From Actinomycetota bacterium (GTDB taxonomy: Bacteria > Actinomycetota > Geothermincolia > Geothermincolales > RBG-13-55-18): 41,316 bases of DNA. Location: NCBI GenBank assembly GCA_013178005.1, contig JABLXL010000032.1, positions 1 through 41,316 of the forward strand, written 5' to 3'. Positions 7,377-32,358 of the stretch are shown here, in pieces; the first letter of the stretch is position 1, and the number at the start of each line of letters is the position of its first letter. The translations under genes and the position numbers were made by a program. The notes under the pieces were generated by a model. It was not told the origin of the DNA. It searched no databases and saw nothing but the letters and a program-made list of their open reading frames with translations.

Positions 7377-7501
7377 GCCTCGTTTGAAAGGACTGCGGCC
7401 TCGCCCCCCAGGCCACGCCCGCGCACACGAAAGGGCATGGCCGGAAGACGTCCCGTGGTGTAGAGTCAAGGCACGTGGACGCATGAGGAAAGGGGGCCGA
7501 G

Positions 7502-8305
7502 GTGGAAAGAGACGAGGACCTCCTCACGGACTTGAGGGAAGCGGCGGGCACGGAGCTCTTCGGGATTGCGGACGCCCGCGCCTACGGCGAGAAAGCTCCG
7601 CCGGGCCACCGTCCCGGCGATTACCTCAAGGGCGCCTGCAGCATCGTGCTCCTGGGGACGCGCATGCTGGACCTTCCCCTGGACGGGCTCCCCGGGACGC
7701 GCAAGGAATACACGGTCAACTTCCACGTGGCCAATACCAGGCTGAACCAGGCGCTCTTCGCCGCCGCGGGCTTCCTGCAGGAGCGGGGACACAAAGTCTT
7801 CCCCGTCCCCTACCTGGAGATGCCGGGATGGAACCTGGACAAGCGGCCGGCCTGGGCGCTCAAGCTGCTGCGGCACCTCGCCGCCATCCCGAAGGTCCAT
7901 GACGTCCTCAACGCCAGGGTGTTGTGGGAGAATCTCTCTTTCCGGCACATGGCGGTGGAGGCAGGTATGGGGGAGATCGGCCTCAACAACCTCCTGCTCA
8001 CACCGGATCACGGTGCCAGGGTGCGCCTGGTCGCGCTGCTCACCAGCGCCGAGCTTCCGGGGGGGAAACCGCTTGCGCCTTCGCTGTGCCGACCCGAGCG
8101 CTGCGGATACGCCTGCGTCAAGGCGTGTCCCGTGGGCGCCCTCGACCGCGAAGGCGGGGGAACGGACAAGGCGGCCTGCCTGAGATACTACATCAAACTC
8201 GGCCTGCCGGGCATAAACGGCCTGCGTTGCGGGATGTGCGTCGCCGCCTGCCCCATGCACAGCCCCCGCTTCCGGGGGGAGACACAGCGAAAGAAATCGG
8301 AATAG
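7502..8305 (+). CDS. Short epoxyqueuosine-reductase-like 4Fe-4S protein
   Basis: This 267-residue protein resembles QueG and related corrinoid iron-sulfur reductases but is much shorter than QueG (about 350-380 residues). Two cysteine clusters lie in the C-terminal third: CRPERCGYACVKACPVGAL and CGMCVAACPM, the double 4Fe-4S ferredoxin-like domain. Upstream, the segment GEIGLNNLLLTPDHGARVRL matches the QueG pattern that positions the corrinoid. It lacks the C-terminal HEAT-like tRNA-binding repeats of true QueG, so tRNA queuosine reduction is doubtful; a small redox reductase is the safer call. GTG at 7502 follows an AAAGGGGG ribosome binding site. Confidence 0.8.
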   Translation: MERDEDLLTDLREAAGTELFGIADARAYGEKAPPGHRPGDYLKGACSIVLLGTRMLDLPLDGLPGTRKEYTVNFHVANTRLNQALFAAAGFLQERGHKVFPVPYLEMPGWNLDKRPAWALKLLRHLAAIPKVHDVLNARVLWENLSFRHMAVEAGMGEIGLNNLLLTPDHGARVRLVALLTSAELPGGKPLAPSLCRPERCGYACVKACPVGALDREGGGTDKAACLRYYIKLGLPGINGLRCGMCVAACPMHSPRFRGETQRKKSE

Positions 8306-8696
8306 CCGAATCCCGATTTCAACGCCCGGGCTTCCGAGGGAGGGCGCTGTAAGCCGCCGTAGCCGTCAGGCCGCCATTGTCACCGCGCGCTTTCGAGGCA
8401 GGCAGCAAATGGAAGCATCGTTTGAAGGCGAACCGTGACCTTCGCCCATACCTCCGTGGGGAAAAGCGAGCCAGAGGACCGAAGTCCTGAGGGGTAACAG
8501 GATCGAGGCAGTCAAGGGATCTTTGCAAGAACGAGAGAAAAAGAGCTTTCCTTTCCCCTCCACCAAGATGCGATATGCATGGAACAAGCGCTGTCCCCAT
8601 ATGCCAGGGCATGGGCTTTCGGCAATTCCATGCTGATTCACCGGACCAGGGCTCCCCCGTCCGCCCGGGCATGGGGCAAGGGCCATCCCCATATGT
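8306..8696. repeat. Convergent intergenic region with palindromic repeat copies
   Basis: This gap between convergent genes has no gene. It holds two copies of the dispersed palindrome family: TGTCCCCATATGCCAGGGCA near 8593 and, on the other orientation, GGGCATGGGGCAAGGGCCAT at 8667-8686 followed by CCCCATATG. The latter matches the element at 5563-5598 closely. Confidence 0.5.
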
Positions 8697-9464
8697 CTAA
8701 TCTATAATGGGGCTGGCATCGGGATCCAGGGGGTTCAAGCGCACCGCCAGGGAGAAAAGATAGGGATAGTTGCTCTTCAGGTGCTCCAGGTAGACAAGCC
8801 ATTCCCTGAGCAGCAGGCTGTAGGCGCGCGCGATGTCGCTGCACAGGTGCTGGTGGTCGGAGTCGGGCAACCCCGCGATGATATACCTGTATTTCAGCTC
8901 CTCGGTGAGGTGAAAGACCGCCCACAGCAGGTCGGTGAAGGTCTCGTGCTCGAGCAGGGCCGGGTTCTCCAGCAGGGTGAGGAGGAAATCGCGCTTCGTC
9001 TGCAGATATTCCCGCATCTCCTCCAGCAACTGGTCGTCCCTTCCTATTGCGCACTCGTACTGCTCCATCCTCCAGCGCGCGCGGCGGAAGTCGTCCTCTT
9101 TCCACTCCGAGCCGGCGGCCAGGCAATCCTTTATCTCCGCGCAGGTGGCGTCGAACTGGGAGAAGGAACGCAGAAGGTGGATGCCCATTTCGCTGAAAAA
9201 CGCGCCGATGACCATGTTCAGCTTCTCCATCCTCAACTTTCTCTCGCGCGAGTCCAGCAGGCGGTGCACGATGATGGCCACCAACAGCACCTCTATGGGC
9301 ATGAAGGCGATATCCCCGAGCATGTAGATGAAGATATGGTGAGCATCCCGGAAAATGGCGTAGTGGACAAGGTAAAGGGCGGCCGAGCCAACCAGGAGGG
9401 CAGCCCCCAGGATCACATACCAGCTTTCATACCATTTTCTTCCATATTCCCGGTATATCCCCAT
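8697..9464 (-). CDS. Membrane protein with two N-terminal helices, unknown function
   Basis: The 255-residue product starts MGIYREYGRKWYESWYVILG; this start is chosen over one 24 bases upstream because GGAGGGAGGTG immediately precedes it. Two membrane helices follow (about residues 15-35 and 45-68: YVILGAALLVGSAALYLVHY and IFIYMLGDIAFMPIEVLLVA). The remaining ~180 residues are a charged helical cytoplasmic domain rich in Glu, Arg, Leu (RMEQYECAIGRDDQLLEEMR) with an isolated HQH motif. I do not recognise a family. It lies beside the sigma factor and signalling genes, divergently from the former, which may hint at a regulatory or stress role, but that is only context. Confidence 0.75.
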   Translation of the reverse strand: MGIYREYGRKWYESWYVILGAALLVGSAALYLVHYAIFRDAHHIFIYMLGDIAFMPIEVLLVAIIVHRLLDSRERKLRMEKLNMVIGAFFSEMGIHLLRSFSQFDATCAEIKDCLAAGSEWKEDDFRRARWRMEQYECAIGRDDQLLEEMREYLQTKRDFLLTLLENPALLEHETFTDLLWAVFHLTEELKYRYIIAGLPDSDHQHLCSDIARAYSLLLREWLVYLEHLKSNYPYLFSLAVRLNPLDPDASPIID

Positions 9465-9510
9465 CACCTCCCTCCAAACGCGCCGCACCTTAAGCCATGA
9501 ACAGATTTTA

Positions 9511-9630
9511 TACCATCCCGGAACGGGACGAAGCGACGAAGATCACCTCCCCGTGGAACCAACTCCATCGGCTTTTACGTTTGCCAGGCCCATCCCGGAA
9601 CGGGACGGGGTGGCGGACGTCATCCTCCTT
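9511..9630. repeat. Direct repeat pair with 17-nt identical core, period 81
   Basis: CCATCCCGGAACGGGAC occurs at 9511-9527 and again at 9592-9608; similarity continues more weakly for about 20 bases (GAAGATCACCTCC versus GACGTCATCCTCC). The pair lies in the 460-bp divergent gap 9465-9924. A third partial copy (TATCCGGAACGAGCGCC) is near 9851. No gene is supported in this gap. Confidence 0.55.
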
Positions 9631-9924
9631 CGGCCCGACCGCGGGAACTCCACCCCGGCTCGCGGGTACGAACGAGCGCCTGCCTCCCTCCGGGCGGCTG
9701 TAAAACCACCAGGAACACGCCGCCGCCTACCACGGCCGGGGGCTCCGCGCGGATATCACCTACCGACGTTATCCCCGGGATCCCTCGGGCGGGAGTCTCG
9801 CTTGGAGGGCATTATCACCCTCGCGTCGTGTTTCAATCACCCGCGCGCCCTATCCGGAACGAGCGCCTCGTTTCCGAGAACCCGAGGGAGACATGGAGAG
9901 GAAGCGCGGAAAGAGGGCACGACC

Positions 9925-10680
9925 ATGGCAAGGACCAGGACCAGGGACGGTCAGCTCACAAAGGACTCCGAGCACACGAGAGAAGCCCTGGTCCTGCGTT
10001 ATGCCCCGTTGGTGCGCAAGGCTGCCCGCTATTACCGGCTCCGCGTTTCACCCCACGTGGATTACGCGGACCTGGTCGGCTACGGTTTTCTCGGCCTGCT
10101 GGACGCCATCGACAGGTTCGATCCCAAACGGGGCGTGGAATTCGAGGCCTATGCGCGCATCCGCATCAACGGCGCCATAAGCGACGGCATCCGCGCCGAG
10201 GCCCGCCTTCCACGCTCCATCCAGGAGAAGGCGCGCAAGCTCAACCATGCCTATGAGGTGTTGTGTGCCGCGTTGAACCGCCTGCCCACCGAAAAGGAAC
10301 TGGCCGACTACCTGGAAATCAACCTGGCCGGATTGCGGCAGTTGCTGGTGGAGGTGGACCAGGCCTTCGTATCCTCCCTCGACGACGCCATATTCCTCAA
10401 CACCGGCGAAGAGGGCGGCCTCAGCCTGCTCGACACCCTGCCGGACGACGGCTCGTTCGACCCATCAGCGCTCTCAGAGACACGGGCCACGGAGGAAATG
10501 GTGCGCGAGGCGGTTAACGACCTGGCGGAAAGGGAGAAACTCGTGTTGCTCCTCTACTATTTCGAGGACCTCACCATGCGGGAGATAGGAGAGGTGCTGG
10601 GCATATCCGAATCCCGGGTTAGCAAGATCCACTCCACCGCCCTCACCCACCTCAGGTCACGCCTCGCAAAAGCAGTATAA
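9925..10680 (+). CDS. RNA polymerase sigma factor, FliA/WhiG (sigma-28) type
   Basis: The 251-residue product shows the sigma-70 family regions in order. Region 2 reads YADLVGYGFLGLLDAIDRFD, with RGVEFEAYARIRINGAISDGIR, a signature of the FliA/WhiG group. Region 3 follows as LPRSIQEKARKLNHAYEVL and LPTEKELADYLEI. Region 4 is LVLLLYYFEDLTMREIGEVL with the HTH ISESRVSKIHSTAL. FliA directs flagellar genes and WhiG directs sporulation genes in actinobacteria; no flagellar or chemotaxis operon lies in this window, so the regulon is unknown. The open frame extends upstream to 9553, but that part is low-complexity non-coding sequence; ATG 9925 (MARTRTRDGQ) is the natural start. Confidence 0.9.
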   Translation: MARTRTRDGQLTKDSEHTREALVLRYAPLVRKAARYYRLRVSPHVDYADLVGYGFLGLLDAIDRFDPKRGVEFEAYARIRINGAISDGIRAEARLPRSIQEKARKLNHAYEVLCAALNRLPTEKELADYLEINLAGLRQLLVEVDQAFVSSLDDAIFLNTGEEGGLSLLDTLPDDGSFDPSALSETRATEEMVREAVNDLAEREKLVLLLYYFEDLTMREIGEVLGISESRVSKIHSTALTHLRSRLAKAV

Positions 10681-23446: not shown

Positions 23447-24289
23447 ATGGACGCATGGAACGTGGTAGCCTTTTCGCGCCATCCCCAAAGGCCGACGGCG
23501 GCGGACTTCATCGAGCTGGCCTGCGATTATTTCTTCGAGATCAAGGGAGACCGTTCGGGAGCCGACGATCCGTCCGTGATCGCCGGCATGGTTACCATGT
23601 GCGGCGAGCGCCTCGCCGTGGCAGGTCATGAGAAAGGGTCCGGGGCAACCGAGAGGAAGCGCCGCAACATGGGCATGCCGGGTCCACGTGGCTTCGCAAA
23701 GGCGTTAAGGCTCTTCAAGCTGGCAGAAAAGCTCTCCCTACCCGTGCTCTGCCTCGTGGACACTCCGGGGGCGTACCCTGGGGTCGAGGCGGAGGAACAC
23801 GGGCAGGCCTTTGCGATTTCGCGCAACCTCGCCGCCCTCGCGTCCCTGAAGACACCGGTCATCGTGGCCCTCATCGGGGAAGGAGGAAGCGGGGGAGCCC
23901 TGGCCCTGGGGGTCGGCGACGCGGTGCTGATGATGGAGAACGCCACCTTCTCGGTCATCAGCCCGGAGGGCTGCTCCTCGATCCTCTGGAGGGACGCCGG
24001 GAAAGCGCGGGAAGCAGCCGAGATGCTGCGCCTCACCTCGCGGGACATGCTTGAGCTCGACCTTATCGACGCCGTGGTCCCCGAAGGCCCCGGGGGCGCC
24101 CACGCACAACCCGTTGCCGCCGCCCTCAACTTGAGAAAATCGGTCCTCGAGCACCTGCGCGCCCTTTCCGCCCTTCCCATCCCTTCCCTGCTCGAGCGCC
24201 GTAAGGAACGGTATCGCCGCCTCGCCTTCTTCCATGAAGTTCCGGGAGACGAGGCGGGCCTGAGCGTCTCCGCGGGCCGGCTCCCTTGA
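23447..24289 (+). CDS. accA: Acetyl-CoA carboxylase carboxyltransferase subunit alpha
   Basis: This 280-residue protein pairs with AccD to transfer the carboxyl group from biotin to acetyl-CoA, giving malonyl-CoA. Family hallmarks are FFEIKGDRSGADDP, the crotonase-fold motif RRNMGMPGPRGFAKALRLFK, DTPGAYPGVEAEEHGQ and the oxyanion-hole region IGEGGSGGALALGVGD. ISPEGCSSILWRD matches the AccA C-terminal half. It is shorter than common AccA (about 315-320), mainly at the N-terminus. First gene of the cluster, preceded by AGGAGGT. AccD is eight genes further on, so the two halves of carboxyltransferase are split within one operon. Confidence 0.95.
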   Translation: MDAWNVVAFSRHPQRPTAADFIELACDYFFEIKGDRSGADDPSVIAGMVTMCGERLAVAGHEKGSGATERKRRNMGMPGPRGFAKALRLFKLAEKLSLPVLCLVDTPGAYPGVEAEEHGQAFAISRNLAALASLKTPVIVALIGEGGSGGALALGVGDAVLMMENATFSVISPEGCSSILWRDAGKAREAAEMLRLTSRDMLELDLIDAVVPEGPGGAHAQPVAAALNLRKSVLEHLRALSALPIPSLLERRKERYRRLAFFHEVPGDEAGLSVSAGRLP

Positions 24290-24346: not shown

Positions 24347-24808
24347 ATGGACAACACGGACAAGCTCATTGACGATATGGAATCAATTACCAGCGTCTTT
24401 TTAAGGTACCAGGTGACGGAGGCCGTATTCCAGGGTTCATTCTGCCGCGTGGAAGTGAGGCTCCACTCGCGAGACACGGTTTGTTCCGTCCGGGAAAGCG
24501 CGGCGACGGGCGTGGCGAGCGATCCGGGAGTCAGGAGGGAGGAAAGACCGATGGGTCCAGCCCAAGCGCCGGGAAAGAGGCGCTGCGTCCTCCTCCGCTC
24601 CCCCGCCGTTGGCCTCTGGCATCCCGCCTCCGACGGCGCCGCGGCGGAAGGCGGTGGGGGGAAGATTCGCGTCGCCGGCGTGGTGCGCGCCATATTGGGC
24701 GACGAGATGGTAGCCGCCCCTAGGGAAGGGCGCCTGCTCCTGGAGCTGGCGGAGGAGGCATCCCTGGTGGGTTTCGGTGACCCGCTGGCTTTCTGGGAGG
24801 TGGCCTAG
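24347..24808 (+). CDS. BCCP-like protein lacking the biotinyl lysine
   Basis: The 153-residue protein lies between accA and fabD. Its N-terminus (DKLIDDMESITSVFLRY) and central VLLRSPAVGLWHP resemble AccB, where the region reads SPMVGTFY. The C-terminal part (AILGDEMVAAPREGRLLLEL, then VGFGDPLAFWEV) follows the biotinyl-domain pattern, ending like the usual EPLVVIE. However, the EAMK motif is absent: the aligned segment has no lysine. The true AccB with EAMKHLN is at 27191. This may be a structural or regulatory paralogue of BCCP or a decaying duplicate. AGGAGG precedes ATG 24347, and the stop is two bases before fabD, suggesting translational coupling. Confidence 0.7.
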   Translation: MDNTDKLIDDMESITSVFLRYQVTEAVFQGSFCRVEVRLHSRDTVCSVRESAATGVASDPGVRREERPMGPAQAPGKRRCVLLRSPAVGLWHPASDGAAAEGGGGKIRVAGVVRAILGDEMVAAPREGRLLLELAEEASLVGFGDPLAFWEVA

Positions 24809-24810
24809 AG

Positions 24811-25713
24811 ATGCGCACGGCGTTCGTGTTCCCGGGGCAGGGAAGCCAGCACCCGGGCATGGCGAAAGAGGTCCTGGAAAGCGAACCCGCGGCGATGGAG
24901 ATCTACCACCTCGCCCGGGAGATATGCGGAGTCGACCTGCTGGAGCTCTGCGCGGAGGGCAATCCCGAGGCCCTCGCCCGCACGGATCACTGCCAGATCG
25001 GCGTCGCCGCGACCTCCCTGGCCTGGCTGGAGTCGCTGCGCCGCCGGGGGTTTGTCCCCCAGGCCGTCGCCGGACACAGCCTGGGGGAGTACTGCGCCGC
25101 CTGCGCGGCGGGCTGCATGAGCGTTACGGACTGCCTGCGCCTGGTCTGGCTCAGGGGCCAGGCCATGCTGGAATGCTCCCGGAAAAGACCCGGGGGCATG
25201 CTCGCCCTGGTGGGCGTGGATCACGGGCGGGCCGCAAGACTGCTGGAGGAAACCGGCAGGAGCGAAAGAGTCTCCATAGCCAACCTCAACAGCTCCTCAC
25301 AAGTGGTGCTCGCGGGCGACCCGGAAGACCTGCGGGACGTCGCCGCCCGTCTGCGCGGGCACGGCATAAGGGCCATACCCCTTAAGGTCGGCGGCGCCTT
25401 CCACACCCAAGCCATGCGCGAGGCGCAGGAGGAGATGGCGGAACACCTGGCGGCGGCCCGGTTGAGCGCGCCATCCACCACTTTTTACTCGGCCTTCACG
25501 GGGAGGCCGGTCTCCAGCGCGGAAGAGGTGGTGGACTGCCTCTCCCGCGGCATGACCTCGCCGGTGCGCTGGCACCAGGTGCAGGGAAGCCTGGTGAAAG
25601 AGGGCATCGCACGGCAGATCGAGGTCGGCCCGGGAGACACCTTGAGCCGCATGGGCCGCAGGGACCATCCGCATATGCTCTTCATACGCGCGGCGGAAGC
25701 CCTGGGGGAATAG
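24811..25713 (+). CDS. fabD: Malonyl-CoA:ACP transacylase
   Basis: The 300-residue protein moves the malonyl group from CoA to ACP. It has FPGQGSQHPGM at the N-terminus, the nucleophile Ser90 in AGHSLGEYCAA, an arginine in RLVWLRGQAM and the catalytic histidine in VGGAFHTQAM. QIEVGPGDTLSRMGRR is the usual C-terminal motif. Length is normal. It starts two bases after the BCCP-like gene and ends 12 bases before accC. Confidence 0.96.
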   Translation: MRTAFVFPGQGSQHPGMAKEVLESEPAAMEIYHLAREICGVDLLELCAEGNPEALARTDHCQIGVAATSLAWLESLRRRGFVPQAVAGHSLGEYCAACAAGCMSVTDCLRLVWLRGQAMLECSRKRPGGMLALVGVDHGRAARLLEETGRSERVSIANLNSSSQVVLAGDPEDLRDVAARLRGHGIRAIPLKVGGAFHTQAMREAQEEMAEHLAAARLSAPSTTFYSAFTGRPVSSAEEVVDCLSRGMTSPVRWHQVQGSLVKEGIARQIEVGPGDTLSRMGRRDHPHMLFIRAAEALGE

Positions 25714-25725
25714 GAGGAGGCAGTC

Positions 25726-27060
25726 TTGTTCGATCGCGTGCTCGTCGCCAACCGTGGGGAGGTTGCGCTGCGCATACTGCGCACCCTGCGCGAGATGGGG
25801 ATCGACGGCGTACTGGCATCCTCCATGGCGGACGCGCGCCTGCCCATGCCCCACGCGCGGGCAAGGGTGTGCATCGGAGGTGACGACCCCACTTCGAGCT
25901 ATCTCAATCCATGCCGAGTCATCGGCGCCGCGGTTGCGTCGGGGGCGGACGCCATCCATCCCGGATATGGCTTTCTCTCCGAGGACGCGGACTTCGCCCG
26001 CATGTGCGCGGAGATGGGACTTGCCTTCATCGGCCCCTCTCCCGAGGCCTTGCGGCGTCTCGGAAACAAGGTCGAGGCCTGCCGCCTGGCCGCGGAGGCC
26101 GGCCTGCCAACCCTGCTCGTGGGGGTGGCGCGCGATGAGGCGGAGATCGCGGGCATGGCGCACGAGGAATTATTTCCCATCGTACTCAAACCGGTGATGG
26201 GAGGAGGGGGTAAGGGGATACGCGCCGTTTTCCGCCCCGAGGACACCGGGGAGGCTTGGCGCCAGGCGCGAAAAGAGGCGAGCACGGCCTTCCGCGACGG
26301 GGGCCTGTACGTCGAGCGCTACCTCCCCGGCGCCCGGCACCTGGAGGCCCAGGTAATACGCGACACGAGGGGAAACACCGCCACTTTCCCCTTGAGGGAA
26401 TGCTCCATCCAGCGACGCCACCAGAAATGGCTGGAGGAAACCCCGGCACCCTCCTGTCCCGAGCGGCTCGAGTCAAGGTTGCGGGAGGGCGCGGCGCGCC
26501 TGGTCGAGATATGCGGCCTGGTGGGAATAGCCACGGTGGAATACCTGGTGCGAGGCGAGAGCTATTTCTTCCTGGAGGTTAATCCACGACTGCAGGTGGA
26601 GCACACCGTCACCGAGATGATCTGCGGCATCGACCTGGTCCGGGAACAGGTGCGCATTGCGAGCGGGGAGGAGCTGGACCCGCTTCCCGCCCCCAGGGGC
26701 CACGCCATGGAGGTGAGGCTTTACGGCTACCCCGCGGGCGGAAGAGCCTGCCGGCTGACGCTTCCGGGAGGAAACGGCATCCGCGTGGACGCCGCGCCCA
26801 CGGGGACCGCGGCCGCCTCGTCCAGGTATGACGGCCTGCTGGCCAAGATCTGCTCCTGGTCCCCTACCCGAGAGATGAACGTGCGGCGCATGCGGCGAGC
26901 CCTGGAGGAGACGGAAGCGGCGGGTTTCCGCTCCAACCTGGAGGAGCTTCGATCGTTGCTGGAAAATAAGGACTTCCAAAGAGGCACATACGACCTCTCG
27001 ACCTTCGATGATCGTTCCGGGGAACCGAGGCGCTTCCGCCAGACCCGGGGACAAAGCTGA
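25726..27060 (+). CDS. accC: Biotin carboxylase subunit of acetyl-CoA carboxylase
   Basis: The 444-residue ATP-grasp enzyme carboxylates the biotin on AccB using ATP and bicarbonate. It begins FDRVLVANRGEVALRILRTL; the glycine-rich loop is VMGGGGKGIRAV, followed by ECSIQRRHQK and the metal/active-site segment FLEVNPRLQVEHTVTEM. The C-terminal biotin-carboxylase domain includes HAMEVRLYGYP, where most homologues have HAIExRINAE, and SRYDGLLAKICSW. The start is TTG at 25726, with GAGGAGG just before. Confidence 0.95.
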   Translation: MFDRVLVANRGEVALRILRTLREMGIDGVLASSMADARLPMPHARARVCIGGDDPTSSYLNPCRVIGAAVASGADAIHPGYGFLSEDADFARMCAEMGLAFIGPSPEALRRLGNKVEACRLAAEAGLPTLLVGVARDEAEIAGMAHEELFPIVLKPVMGGGGKGIRAVFRPEDTGEAWRQARKEASTAFRDGGLYVERYLPGARHLEAQVIRDTRGNTATFPLRECSIQRRHQKWLEETPAPSCPERLESRLREGAARLVEICGLVGIATVEYLVRGESYFFLEVNPRLQVEHTVTEMICGIDLVREQVRIASGEELDPLPAPRGHAMEVRLYGYPAGGRACRLTLPGGNGIRVDAAPTGTAAASSRYDGLLAKICSWSPTREMNVRRMRRALEETEAAGFRSNLEELRSLLENKDFQRGTYDLSTFDDRSGEPRRFRQTRGQS

Positions 27061-27096: not shown

Positions 27097-27236
27097 GGAT
27101 GGATCTCCTGGAGGGCATGGGCGGCTTCATGGCCCGCGAGGGCGTGGGGACGGAACGCGATTGGAAACGGGTTCCAGGGAGGACTTAGGGATGGATTTCC
27201 TGGAGGGCGTGGGGGGCTTCATGGCCCGCGAGGGCA
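27097..27236. repeat. Duplicated accB 5' end, period 92
   Basis: The first ~48 bases around the accB start (27189-27236: GGATGGATTTCCTGGAGGGC and onward) also occur at 27097-27144 with about 45 identical bases. The upstream copy reads M-D-L-L-E-G-M-G-G-F-M-A-R-E-G and then diverges to a stop at 27186-27188, so it is a short false start placed just before the real gene. It fills the accC-accB gap. Confidence 0.85.
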
Positions 27237-27589
27237 TCGTGGAGCTCGAGATACTGGACGGCGACCGCATTTTGCGCATACGGCGAGGACCGCTGGATCC
27301 GCCAGGGTCCCTTAAAGAAGAGGGCCCCGGCCTGGTCCGCGCACCCCTGGGAGGGATCCTGCGCCTCTCTCCCTCCCCGGAAGAGCGGCCTTTTGCCCCG
27401 GTGGGCGAGGCAAGGAAGGAGGGTGACGTGCTGTTCTGCGTCGAGGCGATGAAGCACCTGAACGAGGTGAGGGCGGACGGCGACCTCGTGGTCGAGGAGG
27501 TCCTGGCGGAGGAAGGCGACGCCGTCCATGAAGGCCAGGCGATTATGCGCGTGTCGCGCCTGGACGGCAGGGCTGAGGGGGAGGGTTGA
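27191..27589 (+). CDS. accB: Biotin carboxyl carrier protein of acetyl-CoA carboxylase
   Basis: The 132-residue protein carries biotin between AccC and AccD/AccA. The biotinylation motif is CVEAMKHLNEV with Lys88; M-K-M is M-K-H here, a mild change. The APLGGILRLSPSPEERPF segment corresponds to the SPMVGTFYRAPSP region of AccB. The N-terminal part (MAREGIVELEILDGDRILRI) matches the family helix-strand start. It is a bit short because the usual Ala/Pro linker is reduced. ATG 27191 is chosen over an earlier in-frame ATG (27161) because GGAGG precedes it and a duplicate of this 5' end lies 92 bp upstream. Its stop is four bases before fabH. Confidence 0.93.
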   Translation: MDFLEGVGGFMAREGIVELEILDGDRILRIRRGPLDPPGSLKEEGPGLVRAPLGGILRLSPSPEERPFAPVGEARKEGDVLFCVEAMKHLNEVRADGDLVVEEVLAEEGDAVHEGQAIMRVSRLDGRAEGEG

Positions 27590-27593
27590 GGGC

Positions 27594-28664
27594 GTGGGCG
27601 GCATCGCCATCAAGGGTTGCGGCAAGGGCATCCCGCGTTATTCGCTCCACAACCGGGACCTGGAGGAATTCCTGGACACCAGCCATGACTGGATAGTTTC
27701 CCGCACGGGGATCGAGGAACGCCGTGTGGCCGCTCCGGATGAGGACAACGTCTCGCTGTCCTTGCTCGCGTGCGGGCAAGCCCTCGAACGGGCGGGCGTC
27801 GAGGGGCGGGACGTGGACCTGATAGTGGTGGCAACCGCCACCCCGGACCGCATGGTTCCCTCCCTGGCCTGCACGCTGCAGAGGGAGCTCGGCTCGCGCG
27901 GGCCCGCGCTGGACATCAACGCGGGTTGTTCGGGGTTCATATACGCGCTTGCCATCGCCTTCCACCTGATGCGGGGGGGCATCGCCACTCGCGCCCTGGT
28001 AGTGGGGACGGAGACGCTCACGCGCATCGTGGACTGGAGAGACCGGTCCACCTGCGTGATCTTCGGCGACGGGGCGGGAGCGGCGCTGCTCGCTCCCTGC
28101 CCCGAAGGAGAGGGGATAATCGCCGCCTCCCTGGACGCGCTCGGGGAAGGCGACGGCCTCATACGGGCCGAGGGCGGCGGCGCGCGCATGATGGCCTCGC
28201 TGGCGGGAGGCCTCGTCCCGGGGAACCACCTCCTCCCCTCTCCCCTTCCCCACCTGCACCGCACCTGGAACGGGATAGACCCCTTCCTGCGCATGGACGG
28301 AAAAGAGGTGTTCAAATTCGCGGTCAACAAGCTCTGCGCCACGGTAAAGGAGCTTTGCTCAGCCGCCGGCGTGGGCACGGAAGAGGTCTCGCTCATCATC
28401 CCCCACCAGGCAAACCTGCGCATCCTGGCCGCAGCCGCGGAGAGGCTCGGGGTTCCCAAGGAATCGTTCTTCACCAACATCCAACGCTACGGCAACACCT
28501 CGGCGGCCTCCATTCCCATCGCCCTGGAGGAGGCGCTACGCGCCGGGATGATCCGTGAGGGCGACCTGGTGATCCTCGCAGGGTTCGGGGCGGGCATGAC
28601 CTGGGGAGGCGCGCTGCTGCGCTGGCAGGACGGCCAGGCGATCGAGGGAGGGAGGACGGCTTGA
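27594..28664 (+). CDS. fabH: Beta-ketoacyl-ACP synthase III
   Basis: The 356-residue enzyme condenses acetyl-CoA (or a branched starter) with malonyl-ACP to start fatty-acid synthesis. The Cys-His-Asn triad is visible: Cys112 in [13 protein letters not shown], His in [11 protein letters not shown] and Asn in [10 protein letters not shown]. Other hallmarks are [13 protein letters not shown] and [12 protein letters not shown] at 27594 is chosen; it follows GGGGAGGGTTGAG and gives the family N-terminus ([12 protein letters not shown]), whereas the frame upstream overlaps accB. The stop overlaps the fabG start in TGATG. Starter preference cannot be read from sequence alone. Confidence 0.96.
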
Positions 28665-29407
28665 TGGGAATGGAAGGGAAAACGGTGCTGGTAACGGGCG
28701 GTTCCCGCGGCATCGGGCGCGCCATCGCCCTGGCCCTCGCCGAGGACCACGAACGAATCGCCATAAACTACCAGGGCAACGCGGCCGCCGCCGCCGAATG
28801 CCTCGAGCTCCTGCGCGGGAAGGGAGTCGAGGCCATGGAGTTGAGGGCGGACGTGGGCGACCCCAAACAGGTGGAAACGATGTTCGCGCGCCTAGCGGAG
28901 GTCTGGGGCGGAGTGGACGTCCTGGTCAACAACGCCGGGGTGCGCCGCGACGGGCTCGCCGTCACCATGAGCGACGAAAGCTGGGAGGAGGTCATGCGCA
29001 CCAACCTGCGCGGGGCCTTCAACTGCTCGCGCGTGGCGCTCAAGTCGATGCTGCGAAGGCGCTGGGGAAGGATAATCAACGTCTCCTCGGTGGCCGGCCT
29101 GAGGGGCGTGAAGGGCCAGGCCAATTACTGCGCGTCCAAGGCGGGCCTCATCGGGCTGACGCGCAGCATGGCCCAGGAGGTTGCCGGGCGCGCCATCACC
29201 GTGAACGCCGTGGCTCCCGGGCTGATCCTGACCGATATGACCGAGGACCTGCCCGAGGAAAACCTCGGCCTCATCCTGGGAACCATTCCCATGCGCAGAG
29301 CGGGACGTCCCGAGGAGGTTGCGGGCGCGGTCGCCTTCCTCGCCTCCGAGGAGGCCTCCTACATAACCGGGCAGGTGATCTGCGTGGACGGGGGGATGCT
29401 GGGTTGA
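28664..29407 (+). CDS. fabG: 3-oxoacyl-ACP reductase
   Basis: The 247-residue classical SDR reduces 3-oxoacyl-ACP with NADPH. Motifs: [16 protein letters not shown] (cofactor), [11 protein letters not shown], catalytic Ser in [11 protein letters not shown] and YxxxK in [11 protein letters not shown], and the terminal [11 protein letters not shown]. The start ATG 28664 shares a base with the fabH stop; GGGAGGGAGGA precedes it. The last 47 bases and the beginning of accD are duplicated directly after the gene. Confidence 0.95.
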
Positions 29408-29565
29408 CAGGGCAGGGCGAGATCAGGGAACGACGCGCGGAAGGCTCCGCCGCCTCCGAAGTGACCTCCCACATAACCGGGCAGGTGATCTGCGTGGACG
29501 GGGGGATGCTGGGTTGACGGGGCAGGGCGAGATCAGGGAACGACGCGCGGAAGGCTCCGCCGCCT
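29361..29565. repeat. Near-perfect 95-bp tandem duplication across the fabG/accD junction, period 110
   Basis: Bases 29361-29455 are repeated at 29471-29565 with one visible mismatch (TTGACAG versus TTGACGG). Each copy holds the fabG ending (coding for [14 protein letters not shown], stop) and the overlapping TTG start of accD with its first ~17 codons. The left copy ends fabG and contains an orphan accD start; the right copy contains an orphan fabG end and the working accD start. The frame stays open from one TTG to the next stop at 29517. Confidence 0.93.
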
Positions 29566-30371
29566 GCGCGGACTCGCGCATCGTCTCCCTCCGGGACCGG
29601 GCCAGGCGTCTCTGGACGAGATGCCCGGGCTGCGGGCTGGAGGTGGAACGCTCCGGGCTCAGGGCCTCTCTCGGGGTATGTCCCCACTGCGGCTTCCACC
29701 ACCGCATCAGCGTGGGCGAACGCGCTGGATACTTATTCGACCCGGGCTCCTTCCGCGTCGCGGACGAAATCATCCTGACCGCCGACCCCCTTTGTTTCCA
29801 GGGCGGCGCCTACCGTCGGGAAGCCCAGGAGCTGGGGCGGGAGGCGATGGCCTACGGAACGGCCGCCGTGCGGGGCTCATCCTGCGTGGCCGCATTGATG
29901 GACTTCTCCGTCTTCGGCGGCTCCATGAGCGCGGCGGTGGGAGAGATTTTCCGCCGCGCCTGCGCCCTCGGCGTCGAACACGGGCTTCCCCTGCTGGCGG
30001 CGGTGTGTTCCGGCGGGGTGCGCGTTCAGGAGGGGGCGCCGGCGCTGATGCAGATGGCGAGGGTGATGTTCGCCCTGGAGGAGCTCTCGGAAGCCCGCCT
30101 CCCCTTTATCTCCCTTCTCTGCGACCCGTCGTGCGGCGGGGTCGCCGCGAGCTTCGCCACCGCCGCGGACGTCATCCTGGCTGAGCCCGGGGCGCTCATC
30201 TGTTTCAGCGGACCCAGGGTGGTCGAGCAGACCCTGGGGATAAAGCCCGAACCGGACTTCTCGCGCGCCGAATCCCTCCTCGAGCGGGGGCTGGTGGACA
30301 TGGTGGTGCCCCGTCCGCGCCAGCGCGAGGTGATCGGCGGCCTGCTGGCCTTCTTCTCCGAAAGGGGGTGA
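29514..30371 (+). CDS. accD: Acetyl-CoA carboxylase carboxyltransferase subunit beta
   Basis: The 285-residue subunit pairs with AccA. An N-terminal Cys4 zinc ribbon reads RCPGCGLEVERSG then GVCPHCGFHH. The crotonase-fold core has FSVFGGSMSAAVGEIFRRA, VCSGGVRVQEGAPALMQMA, PFISLLCDPSCGGVAASFAT and ISGPR-equivalent FSGPRVVEQTLG. AccD usually has CTGGARMQEG where this has CSGGVRVQEG, a close variant. The start is a TTG at 29514, overlapping the duplicated fabG stop (TTGA); no ATG or GTG alternative precedes the zinc ribbon. The enzyme belongs to the accA-accC-accB set of this cluster. Confidence 0.93.
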   Translation: MTGQGEIRERRAEGSAACADSRIVSLRDRARRLWTRCPGCGLEVERSGLRASLGVCPHCGFHHRISVGERAGYLFDPGSFRVADEIILTADPLCFQGGAYRREAQELGREAMAYGTAAVRGSSCVAALMDFSVFGGSMSAAVGEIFRRACALGVEHGLPLLAAVCSGGVRVQEGAPALMQMARVMFALEELSEARLPFISLLCDPSCGGVAASFATAADVILAEPGALICFSGPRVVEQTLGIKPEPDFSRAESLLERGLVDMVVPRPRQREVIGGLLAFFSERG

Positions 30372-30640
30372 TGGGGAAATAGACAGAAGCCCTTGTAGCC
30401 CGATAAACGCAGGGCGTCACGTACGGAAAAGAACAACGGCGTAGGAAAATAACGCCATCCCGTAAGGCGTGTTCCCCGGAGCGCCCCAAGACGCGGGCGC
30501 GGGCTGGAGGAGGCAGCGCAGATGAGGACGTTTCTCCCGTTGCGCTCGGATTGGCATGGCACAAGGCATGACAATCGCTCCCCCTTTTGCTCCCCGACCG
30601 AGGTTACGCACAAGGGAGGCAAGGAGGAAAGGAAGGAAGC

Positions 30641-30892
30641 GTGGACGAGAAACAAGTGTTCATGAGGATAAGGGAGATACTGTCCGGGAGGCAGGCGATA
30701 CCGGTTGAGGAGATCGGCCCCGACACCCGCCTCAAGGAGGATCTGGAAGTCGATTCCCTCGACCTGGTAGAGCTTTCCATGCTGGTGGAGGAAGAGTACG
30801 GGATCGAGCTCTTCGACGAGCAGCTGGGCGCGGTCAACACGGTGGGTGACGTGGTCCGCCTGATACTGGAAAGCGTATCGGCGAGGGACTGA
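30641..30892 (+). CDS. acpP: Acyl carrier protein
   Basis: The 83-residue protein carries growing acyl chains on phosphopantetheine at Ser39 in the motif EVDSLDLVEL. TRLKEDLEVDS and EEEYGIELFDEQ are typical of ACP helices I-III, and VGDVVRLILE closes the domain. The GTG start at 30641 follows AAGGAGGAAAGGAAGG; the open frame upstream is non-coding. It is 269 bp after accD, a gap with no gene that may contain a separate promoter giving higher ACP expression. Confidence 0.95.
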   Translation: MDEKQVFMRIREILSGRQAIPVEEIGPDTRLKEDLEVDSLDLVELSMLVEEEYGIELFDEQLGAVNTVGDVVRLILESVSARD

Positions 30893-31025
30893 CCGGGCGA
30901 GCGGCGAGCGAGTGGGCGGCGACGCGGCGCAGGAGGGGTCGCCCGGCCGCCGCTCGCGGAGTCGCCGCGCCTCGCGGCACGAGACACCTTGCCGCGGACG
31001 GAACGGGGGTGGGGTCGCAAGAACC

Positions 31026-31055
31026 CGTGAGGGCGGCCGGATCGCCGCCCTCACG
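31026..31055. terminator. Perfect 12-bp hairpin between acpP and fabF
   Basis: CGTGAGGGCGGC (31026-31037) pairs with GCCGCCCTCACG (31044-31055), 6-nt loop. No U-tract follows, and fabF starts 43 bp later, so attenuation or mRNA processing may be meant rather than full termination. The gap also has other GC-rich inverted stretches. Confidence 0.5.
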
Positions 31056-31098
31056 CGCGGCGAAAATGTAGAGGCTTGAACGAGGAAGGTGAGAGAGC

Positions 31099-32358
31099 AT
31101 GAAACGCAGAGTGGTCGTAACCGGCCTGGGGGCGGTCACCCCACTGGGCGTGGGAGCGGAGGCGTTCTGGACGGCGCTCAAGCAGGGTCGCTCCGGCATC
31201 GGCCCCATATCCTCCTTCGACGCCGACGGCCTGCCCAGCCGCATAGCCGGAGAGGTATCGTCCTTCGATCCGGCCGAATACGTGGACCCCAAGACGGCCA
31301 TGCGCATGGACCGCTTCTGCCATTTCGCGGTGGCGGGAGCCCGCCTCGCCCTGGAAGACGCCGGGCTGCCGGAGGGAAGAGAGCTCGAGGCGGCGGGGGT
31401 GGAGGCGGGACGTGCGGGCATAATAGTGGGCTCGGGCATCGGGGGGATGTCCACCCTGGAGAACCAGCACCGCGTGCTCCTGGAACGCGGATATGCGCGG
31501 GTGAGCCCCTTCACCATACCCATGATCATCCCCAACATGGCCGCGGGGATACTGGCCATCAACCTCGGTTTCACGGGGCCCAACGCATGCACCGTCACCG
31601 CCTGCGCCGCGGGCGCCCACGCCATAGGCATGGCCTACGATCTCATCGCCTCGGGAAGGGCGGACCTCTGTATCGCGGGCGGGAGCGAGGCCAGCATAAC
31701 CCCGCTATCGGTGGCCGGTTTCTGCTCCATGCGCGCTCTCTCCACCCGCAACGAGGAGCCCGAGGCGGCCAGCAGGCCCTTCGACGCCGGCAGGGATGGC
31801 TTCGTCATCGCCGAGGGGGCGGGGATCTTGGTGTTGGAGAGCGAGGAAGGGGCGCTTGCCAGGGGGGCGAGGATATACTGCGAGCTGGCCGGCTTCGGGA
31901 TGAGCTGTGACGCCTACCATATAACCGCCCCCGACCCGGAATCGCGGGGCGCATCCGCGTGCATGCTGGAGGCCATGCGTTCCGCCGGCCTCGGCCCCCG
32001 GGACATCGGCTACATCAACGCCCATGGCACCTCCACCCCCTACAACGATCGCAGCGAGACCCAGGCGATAAAGATGGCCTTGGGCGAACACGCCCATGGC
32101 GTGGCGATATCCTCCACCAAGTCCATGACTGGCCACCTCCTGGGGGCGGCGGGCGGGGTGGAGGCCATCGCCACCGCCCTGGCCATACACGAGGGGGTCA
32201 TCCCACCCACCATCAACCTGGAGGAACCGGACCCGGAATGCGACCTCGACTACGTGCCCGGCGAAGCGCGCGAGGCGGCGGTCGAGGCGGCCTTGAGCAA
32301 CTCCTTCGGGTTCGGGGGGCACAACGCGTGCCTGGCCTTCAAAGCGTGGCGCGGGTAA
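31099..32358 (+). CDS. fabF: Beta-ketoacyl-ACP synthase II
   Basis: The 419-residue KAS II condenses acyl-ACP with malonyl-ACP for elongation. The Cys-His-His triad is Cys169 in TVTACAAGAHAIG, His in INAHGTSTPYNDRSE and His in KSMTGHLLGAAGG. The N-terminus (RRVVVTGLGAVTPLGVG) and the glycine-rich NSFGFGGHNACL end are standard. GAGGAAGGTGAGAG lies before the ATG. It is the last gene of the cluster; no fabZ or enoyl reductase follows. Confidence 0.96.
   Translation: MKRRVVVTGLGAVTPLGVGAEAFWTALKQGRSGIGPISSFDADGLPSRIAGEVSSFDPAEYVDPKTAMRMDRFCHFAVAGARLALEDAGLPEGRELEAAGVEAGRAGIIVGSGIGGMSTLENQHRVLLERGYARVSPFTIPMIIPNMAAGILAINLGFTGPNACTVTACAAGAHAIGMAYDLIASGRADLCIAGGSEASITPLSVAGFCSMRALSTRNEEPEAASRPFDAGRDGFVIAEGAGILVLESEEGALARGARIYCELAGFGMSCDAYHITAPDPESRGASACMLEAMRSAGLGPRDIGYINAHGTSTPYNDRSETQAIKMALGEHAHGVAISSTKSMTGHLLGAAGGVEAIATALAIHEGVIPPTINLEEPDPECDLDYVPGEAREAAVEAALSNSFGFGGHNACLAFKAWRG

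Follow-up and report, generated by a model that had tools for sequence, protein, structure and literature searches.

Acetyl-CoA carboxylase (ACC) carries out the committed step of fatty acid synthesis. The closest known counterparts of the protein that we report here are the plant BADC proteins, which are BCCP-like, are not biotinylated and have been described as a glue for BC-BCCP; non-catalytic BCCP-like subunits have been described as unique to plant ACC, and the non-catalytic subunits of bacterial acyl-CoA carboxylases have been called 'glue' (PMC11926652). BADC proteins have also been described as competitors of BCCP for BC that inhibit ACCase (PMC7712654). The role of BADC, in assembly or in inhibition, is disputed, and a bacterial version contained in one operon would offer a simple system for reconstitution.

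We analyzed a 41,316-nt stretch of DNA (the window) from an Actinomycetota genome of 3.6 Mb in 98 contigs. The window carries a ten-gene operon on the + strand, in the order accA-X-fabD-accC-accB-fabH-fabG-accD-acpP-fabF (Table 1), in which X is very probably a homologue of BCCP (AccB) without the biotinyl lysine. AccA is present in a single copy in the genome, and thus the ACC of this operon is the only AccA-type ACC there. AccA itself begins at approximately position 50 of the Pfam ACCA model, its N-terminal region being absent or much shortened. A true AccB is encoded further on, as the preliminary description had stated; it follows accC, and its biotinylation motif is intact; the accB frame is also open from a TTG at 27161, and fabH probably begins later than the first position of its open frame. 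Consensus scans at the start of the operon found no promoter, terminator or clear operator, and yielded one 8-nt palindrome only. We found the same gene order, to the extent of the contigs, in five other draft genomes of the order, one from the same genus (L099), two from the same family (L100, L101) and two from another family of the order (L102, L103); contig ends truncate the cluster on the accA side in L101 and L102, and at fabF in L103.

Table 1. Features of the operon within the window.
Feature	Position	Strand	Basis
accA, carboxyltransferase alpha, first operon gene	23447..24289	+	Pfam ACCA 2.7e-103
X, lysine-less BCCP-like protein, 153 aa	24347..24808	+	ORF, orthologues, profile and model matches to BCCPs
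Biotinyl-type beta domain of X, residues 79-152	24581..24802	+	predicted strands, alignment to canonical BCCPs
SPAVG of X, first strand, retained, residues 85-89	24599..24613	+	sequence and alignment
RAIL of X, replacing EAMK	24686..24697	+	alignment
GGGAGG, probable fabD Shine-Dalgarno, inside the TGG-GAG-GTG (WEV) codons of X	24795..24800	+	
fabD	24811..25713	+	Pfam Acyl_transf_1 1e-43
accC, biotin carboxylase	25726..27060	+	catalytic motifs intact
accB, true BCCP	27191..27589	+	Pfam Biotin_lipoyl 4.8e-10, alignment
EAMK of accB	27443-27454	+	VEAMKHLNEV in alignment
fabH ORF (span with fabG 27528..29407)	27528-28664	+	named from sequence, conserved order
fabG	28661-29407	+	named from sequence, conserved order
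accD, carboxyltransferase beta, zinc ribbon	29514..30371	+	Pfam Carboxyl_trans 1.6e-17, Zn_ribbon_ACC 6.4e-05
acpP ORF (span with fabF 30587..32358)	30587-30892	+	named from sequence, conserved order
fabF	31099-32358	+	named from sequence, conserved order

The X frame starts with an ATG behind an AGGAGG-type ribosome site and is open throughout. In the AlphaFold model, the N-terminus contains a helix (residues 3-19) predicted with low confidence, residues 14-74 form a low-confidence stretch, and the domain block that follows (pLDDT about 64-90) has six strands (79-84, 89-93, 107-115, 118-123, 129-133 and 146-152). This domain opens with RSPAVG and closes with PLAFWEV, and the hairpin aligns without gaps to that of E. 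coli BCCP and of 19 other BCCP domains, which places Leu117 (codon 24695-24697) at the position of the biotinyl lysine. Thus, the preliminary description was right that X is an AccB-like protein that keeps SPxVG and the terminal strands and lacks EAMK. A G-D-E turn, mostly conserved among the X sequences, follows RAIL. Since lysines in the X domain are few (zero to two per domain) and none is conserved across the six X sequences, modification with biotin at a shifted lysine is unlikely. Five of the X sequences span the thumb, between strands 2 and 3, and in these it is shorter and has no P-F-V pattern; compared with a functional biotin carrier, X therefore departs in its thumb as well as in the lysine of (E/A)MK, which is absent from six of six. 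A shuffle test for the BCCP N-terminal domain did not detect this domain in the window X, which was matched by 659 of 1000 shuffles, or in L103 (260 of 1000), and gave weak signals in two of the four orthologues tested (8 of 1000 and 19 of 1000).

We examined the relationship of X to BCCP with profile and structure comparisons. Single-protein searches of Pfam and NCBIfam with the window X alone returned nothing useful, and two of the six X members reached Pfam Biotin_lipoyl weakly (best 0.0048). When a profile of the six X sequences was run against all PDB chains, the first 11 matches were biotin carriers only (best 7.6e-7), with E. coli BCCP at 5.5e-5, and an ordinary BCCP from the same class scored 1.8e-9 with the X profile. 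Similarly, hhalign aligned X with the ordinary BCCPs of relatives at a probability of 96.8 (E 2.4e-10), and with the AccB of its own operon at E 1.9e-4. With the X model as a Foldseek query, biotin-dependent carboxylases and BCCPs led the list (prob 1.00; best E-value 8.9e-4), and the top 15 included a long-chain acyl-CoA carboxylase, E. coli BCCP, Pyrococcus BCCP and Arabidopsis BCCP1; the TM-scores by target length were modest (0.55-0.7, isolated BCCP domains), in part because much of the X model is disordered. The preliminary description had called for a comparison of the predicted structure with BCCP, and the predicted fold does match BCCPs rather than lacking the biotinyl fold.

The lysine-less form is more than a chance feature, as it recurs at this locus in all six clusters found. 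In all six clusters a gene without EAMK precedes fabD, the residues in the lysine column being L, L, A, A, M and I, such that none of the five other genomes has EAMK at this locus. We found X to be less conserved than any other gene of the cluster: the window and L099 share 46% identity in X, compared to 67-86% in the other genes. Nevertheless, the dN/dS of the X domain was 0.34 and 0.49 in the two closest pairs, and thus below 1 in a comparison that the preliminary description had also proposed, although these pairs are diverged and GC-rich with high dS; moreover, third codon positions held more than one third of the changes over two independent pairs (P = 5e-4). Among 396 Actinomycetota genomes, the X profile detected no lysine-less form beyond the six, its other matches being ordinary BCCPs (G028, G032) or unrelated reading frames. 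In three class members whose FAS cluster is different (L110, L111, L112), accC is preceded by an ordinary BCCP carrying ETLK, and we found no lysine-less BCCP there. In a tree in which both X and AccB sit on long branches, and in which an origin of X from the operon AccB is not separable from one from another BCCP, the lysine-less X sequences formed one group with 100/100 support, and the AccB proteins of these clusters likewise formed one fully supported group. Thus, most simply, the lysine would have been lost once, in an ancestor of at least two families of the order and before those families split.

We also noted features of the wider genome context. A second biotin enzyme at L115 (G000:C9, about 7440-10631) resembles OadA/pyruvate carboxylase B chains and includes a BCCP domain (EVMK) of its own; a second AccC lies beside it, and a gene of the biotin/lipoate ligase family is found at C9:11796-12122. 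Across the class, the distribution of this pathway is patchy, with AccA in 8 of 30 genomes and FabF in 9 of 30; AccA-type ACC and FabF are missing from many genomes that are more than 90% complete, including that of a congener (G001), and such members would either have no type II fatty acid synthesis or use another system.

The junction between X and fabD is tight. The stop codon of X and the ATG of fabD are 2 nt apart in the window, with the probable fabD Shine-Dalgarno inside the end of X, consistent with the translation-coupled position previously ascribed to the gene. In all six clusters a probable fabD Shine-Dalgarno (GGAGG or GAGG) falls within the last X codons (WEV), and in most of them the stop and start overlap or are a few bases apart, the fabD start in L103 being unsettled. 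We had considered the conserved WEV ending as proof of a protein surface, but this idea is weakened because the WEV codons form the fabD Shine-Dalgarno. Some of the C-terminal conservation of X may serve the ribosome site of fabD.

The AccB of the operon is itself derived. AccB keeps the biotin hairpin, but its post-hairpin glycine and terminal glutamate, which are conserved elsewhere, are gone, and it has APLxGIL instead of SPMVGTF; these unusual features are conserved in the six genomes. Scored against 19 canonical BCCP domains, X and AccB have about a dozen core positions in common and otherwise show a reciprocal pattern: X keeps and AccB has lost V9, the aromatic residue at 12, G54, the aromatic residue at 69 (in half of the X sequences) and E77, while AccB keeps and X has lost M8, E40, K43, N46, E47 and I59 (alignment columns). 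The AlphaFold model of the true AccB (pLDDT 42) is too poor to use and says nothing on the AccB fold. In AccC of all six clusters, the catalytic motifs are intact and the segment before the Y-D motif is altered (GTAAASSRYD here), whereas the two ordinary AccC proteins compared read GCSVPYIYD or GCLIPYFYD (GxxxPxxYD-type). This co-divergence of AccB and AccC would be compatible with an ACC whose carrier subcomplex has been remodelled.

We considered several alternatives to an ACC protein derived from BCCP. If X were a barrel-sandwich hybrid of other descent, HlyD-like or lipoyl-like, and no BCCP, the weak matches of three of the six X members to Pfam HlyD_3 (best E 0.0018) would be explained; however, biotin carriers and biotin-dependent carboxylases head both the profile and the fold matches, and X has SPxVG in common with BCCPs as well as an ACC gene context, and we consider this descent highly improbable. 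It is unlikely that X is a degenerating, functionless duplicate of BCCP, tolerated since its 3' end gives a coupled start to fabD. While X evolves fast, has no catalytic lysine and holds the fabD ribosome site within its 3' end, its frame is open in six of six genomes from two families, the turn and domain residues are conserved far from the fabD site, and the excess of third-position changes and the dN/dS below 1 also count against this reading. X might also act with FabD (malonyl-CoA:ACP transacylase), for example by docking FabD to ACC, and not in AccC-AccB. Its place directly upstream of fabD, where the two frames overlap at stop and start or are separated by a few bases in the clusters in which both are readable, would agree with such a role, but accA is equally adjacent to X wherever the contig extends, and we know of no FabD partner with a biotinyl fold, which counts against this quite improbable reading. 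Context and homology would link X to ACC rather than to FabD.

Thus, we think it probable that X is a non-biotinylated, BCCP-derived subunit of ACC, of either an assembly or a regulatory kind. The preliminary description had suggested a structural or regulatory subunit; what our results support is a conserved AccB/BCCP homologue without the lysine, tied to the ACC/FAS operon, while physical membership in ACC and a role in assembly or restraint are what we infer from the gene context and its co-conservation, from the residues lost reciprocally and from the precedent of plant BADC. Specifically, X would have lost its lysine in an ancestor and then persisted in the heteromeric ACC of the operon as a subunit without catalytic function. 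Its flattened-barrel domain, unable to carry CO2, would sit within the AccC-AccB subcomplex much as a BCCP does and there hold or cap AccB on AccC, or compete with AccB, and X might thereby set the assembly and activity of this committed step, as BADC does in plastids. One variant of this explanation, which we regard as rather doubtful, is that X is a decoy regulator, which would vie with AccB for AccC and thereby slow the formation of malonyl-CoA instead of aiding assembly. BADC has been reported to inhibit ACCase in competition with BCCP for BC (PMC7712654), and X does retain the domain with the carrier site gone; however, the losses in AccB that mirror those in X point to partnership over simple competition, and NMR data on BCCP1 speak against such an inhibitor model for the plant enzyme (PMC11926652). 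Another reading, also rather doubtful, is that the role of BCCP is split, with AccB providing the biotin hairpin and the thumb length and X the other canonical barrel positions, in an obligate hetero-oligomer.

We compared X with the known systems. Like AccB/BCCP of heteromeric ACC (E. coli, 1BDO, 4HR7; TIGR00531), X has the biotinyl-domain fold, SPxVG and the terminal PLxxxE, but it differs in having no EAMK or lysine, an altered and short thumb and an unrecognisable N-terminal domain. The AccE/PccE epsilon subunits are similar to X in being an extra small carboxylase subunit in Actinobacteria (PMC13118682). These subunits, however, belong to a different enzyme architecture than the heteromeric ACC of X. 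They are not known to have a biotinyl fold. The likeness to plant plastid BADC1-3 is closer, since both are BCCP-related, have no biotinylation motif and coexist with a true BCCP; BADC is part of heteromeric ACC, and X would be so by its context. Unlike BADC, X is bacterial, single copy and within a FAS operon, and is confined to one order among the genomes sampled. In this reading X would work like BADC, and we assume that its origin is separate. A bacterial version would suggest that the non-catalytic BCCP-like arrangement evolved more than once, and if the role of BCCP is indeed split between X and AccB, bacteria would have evolved a counterpart of plant BADC independently.
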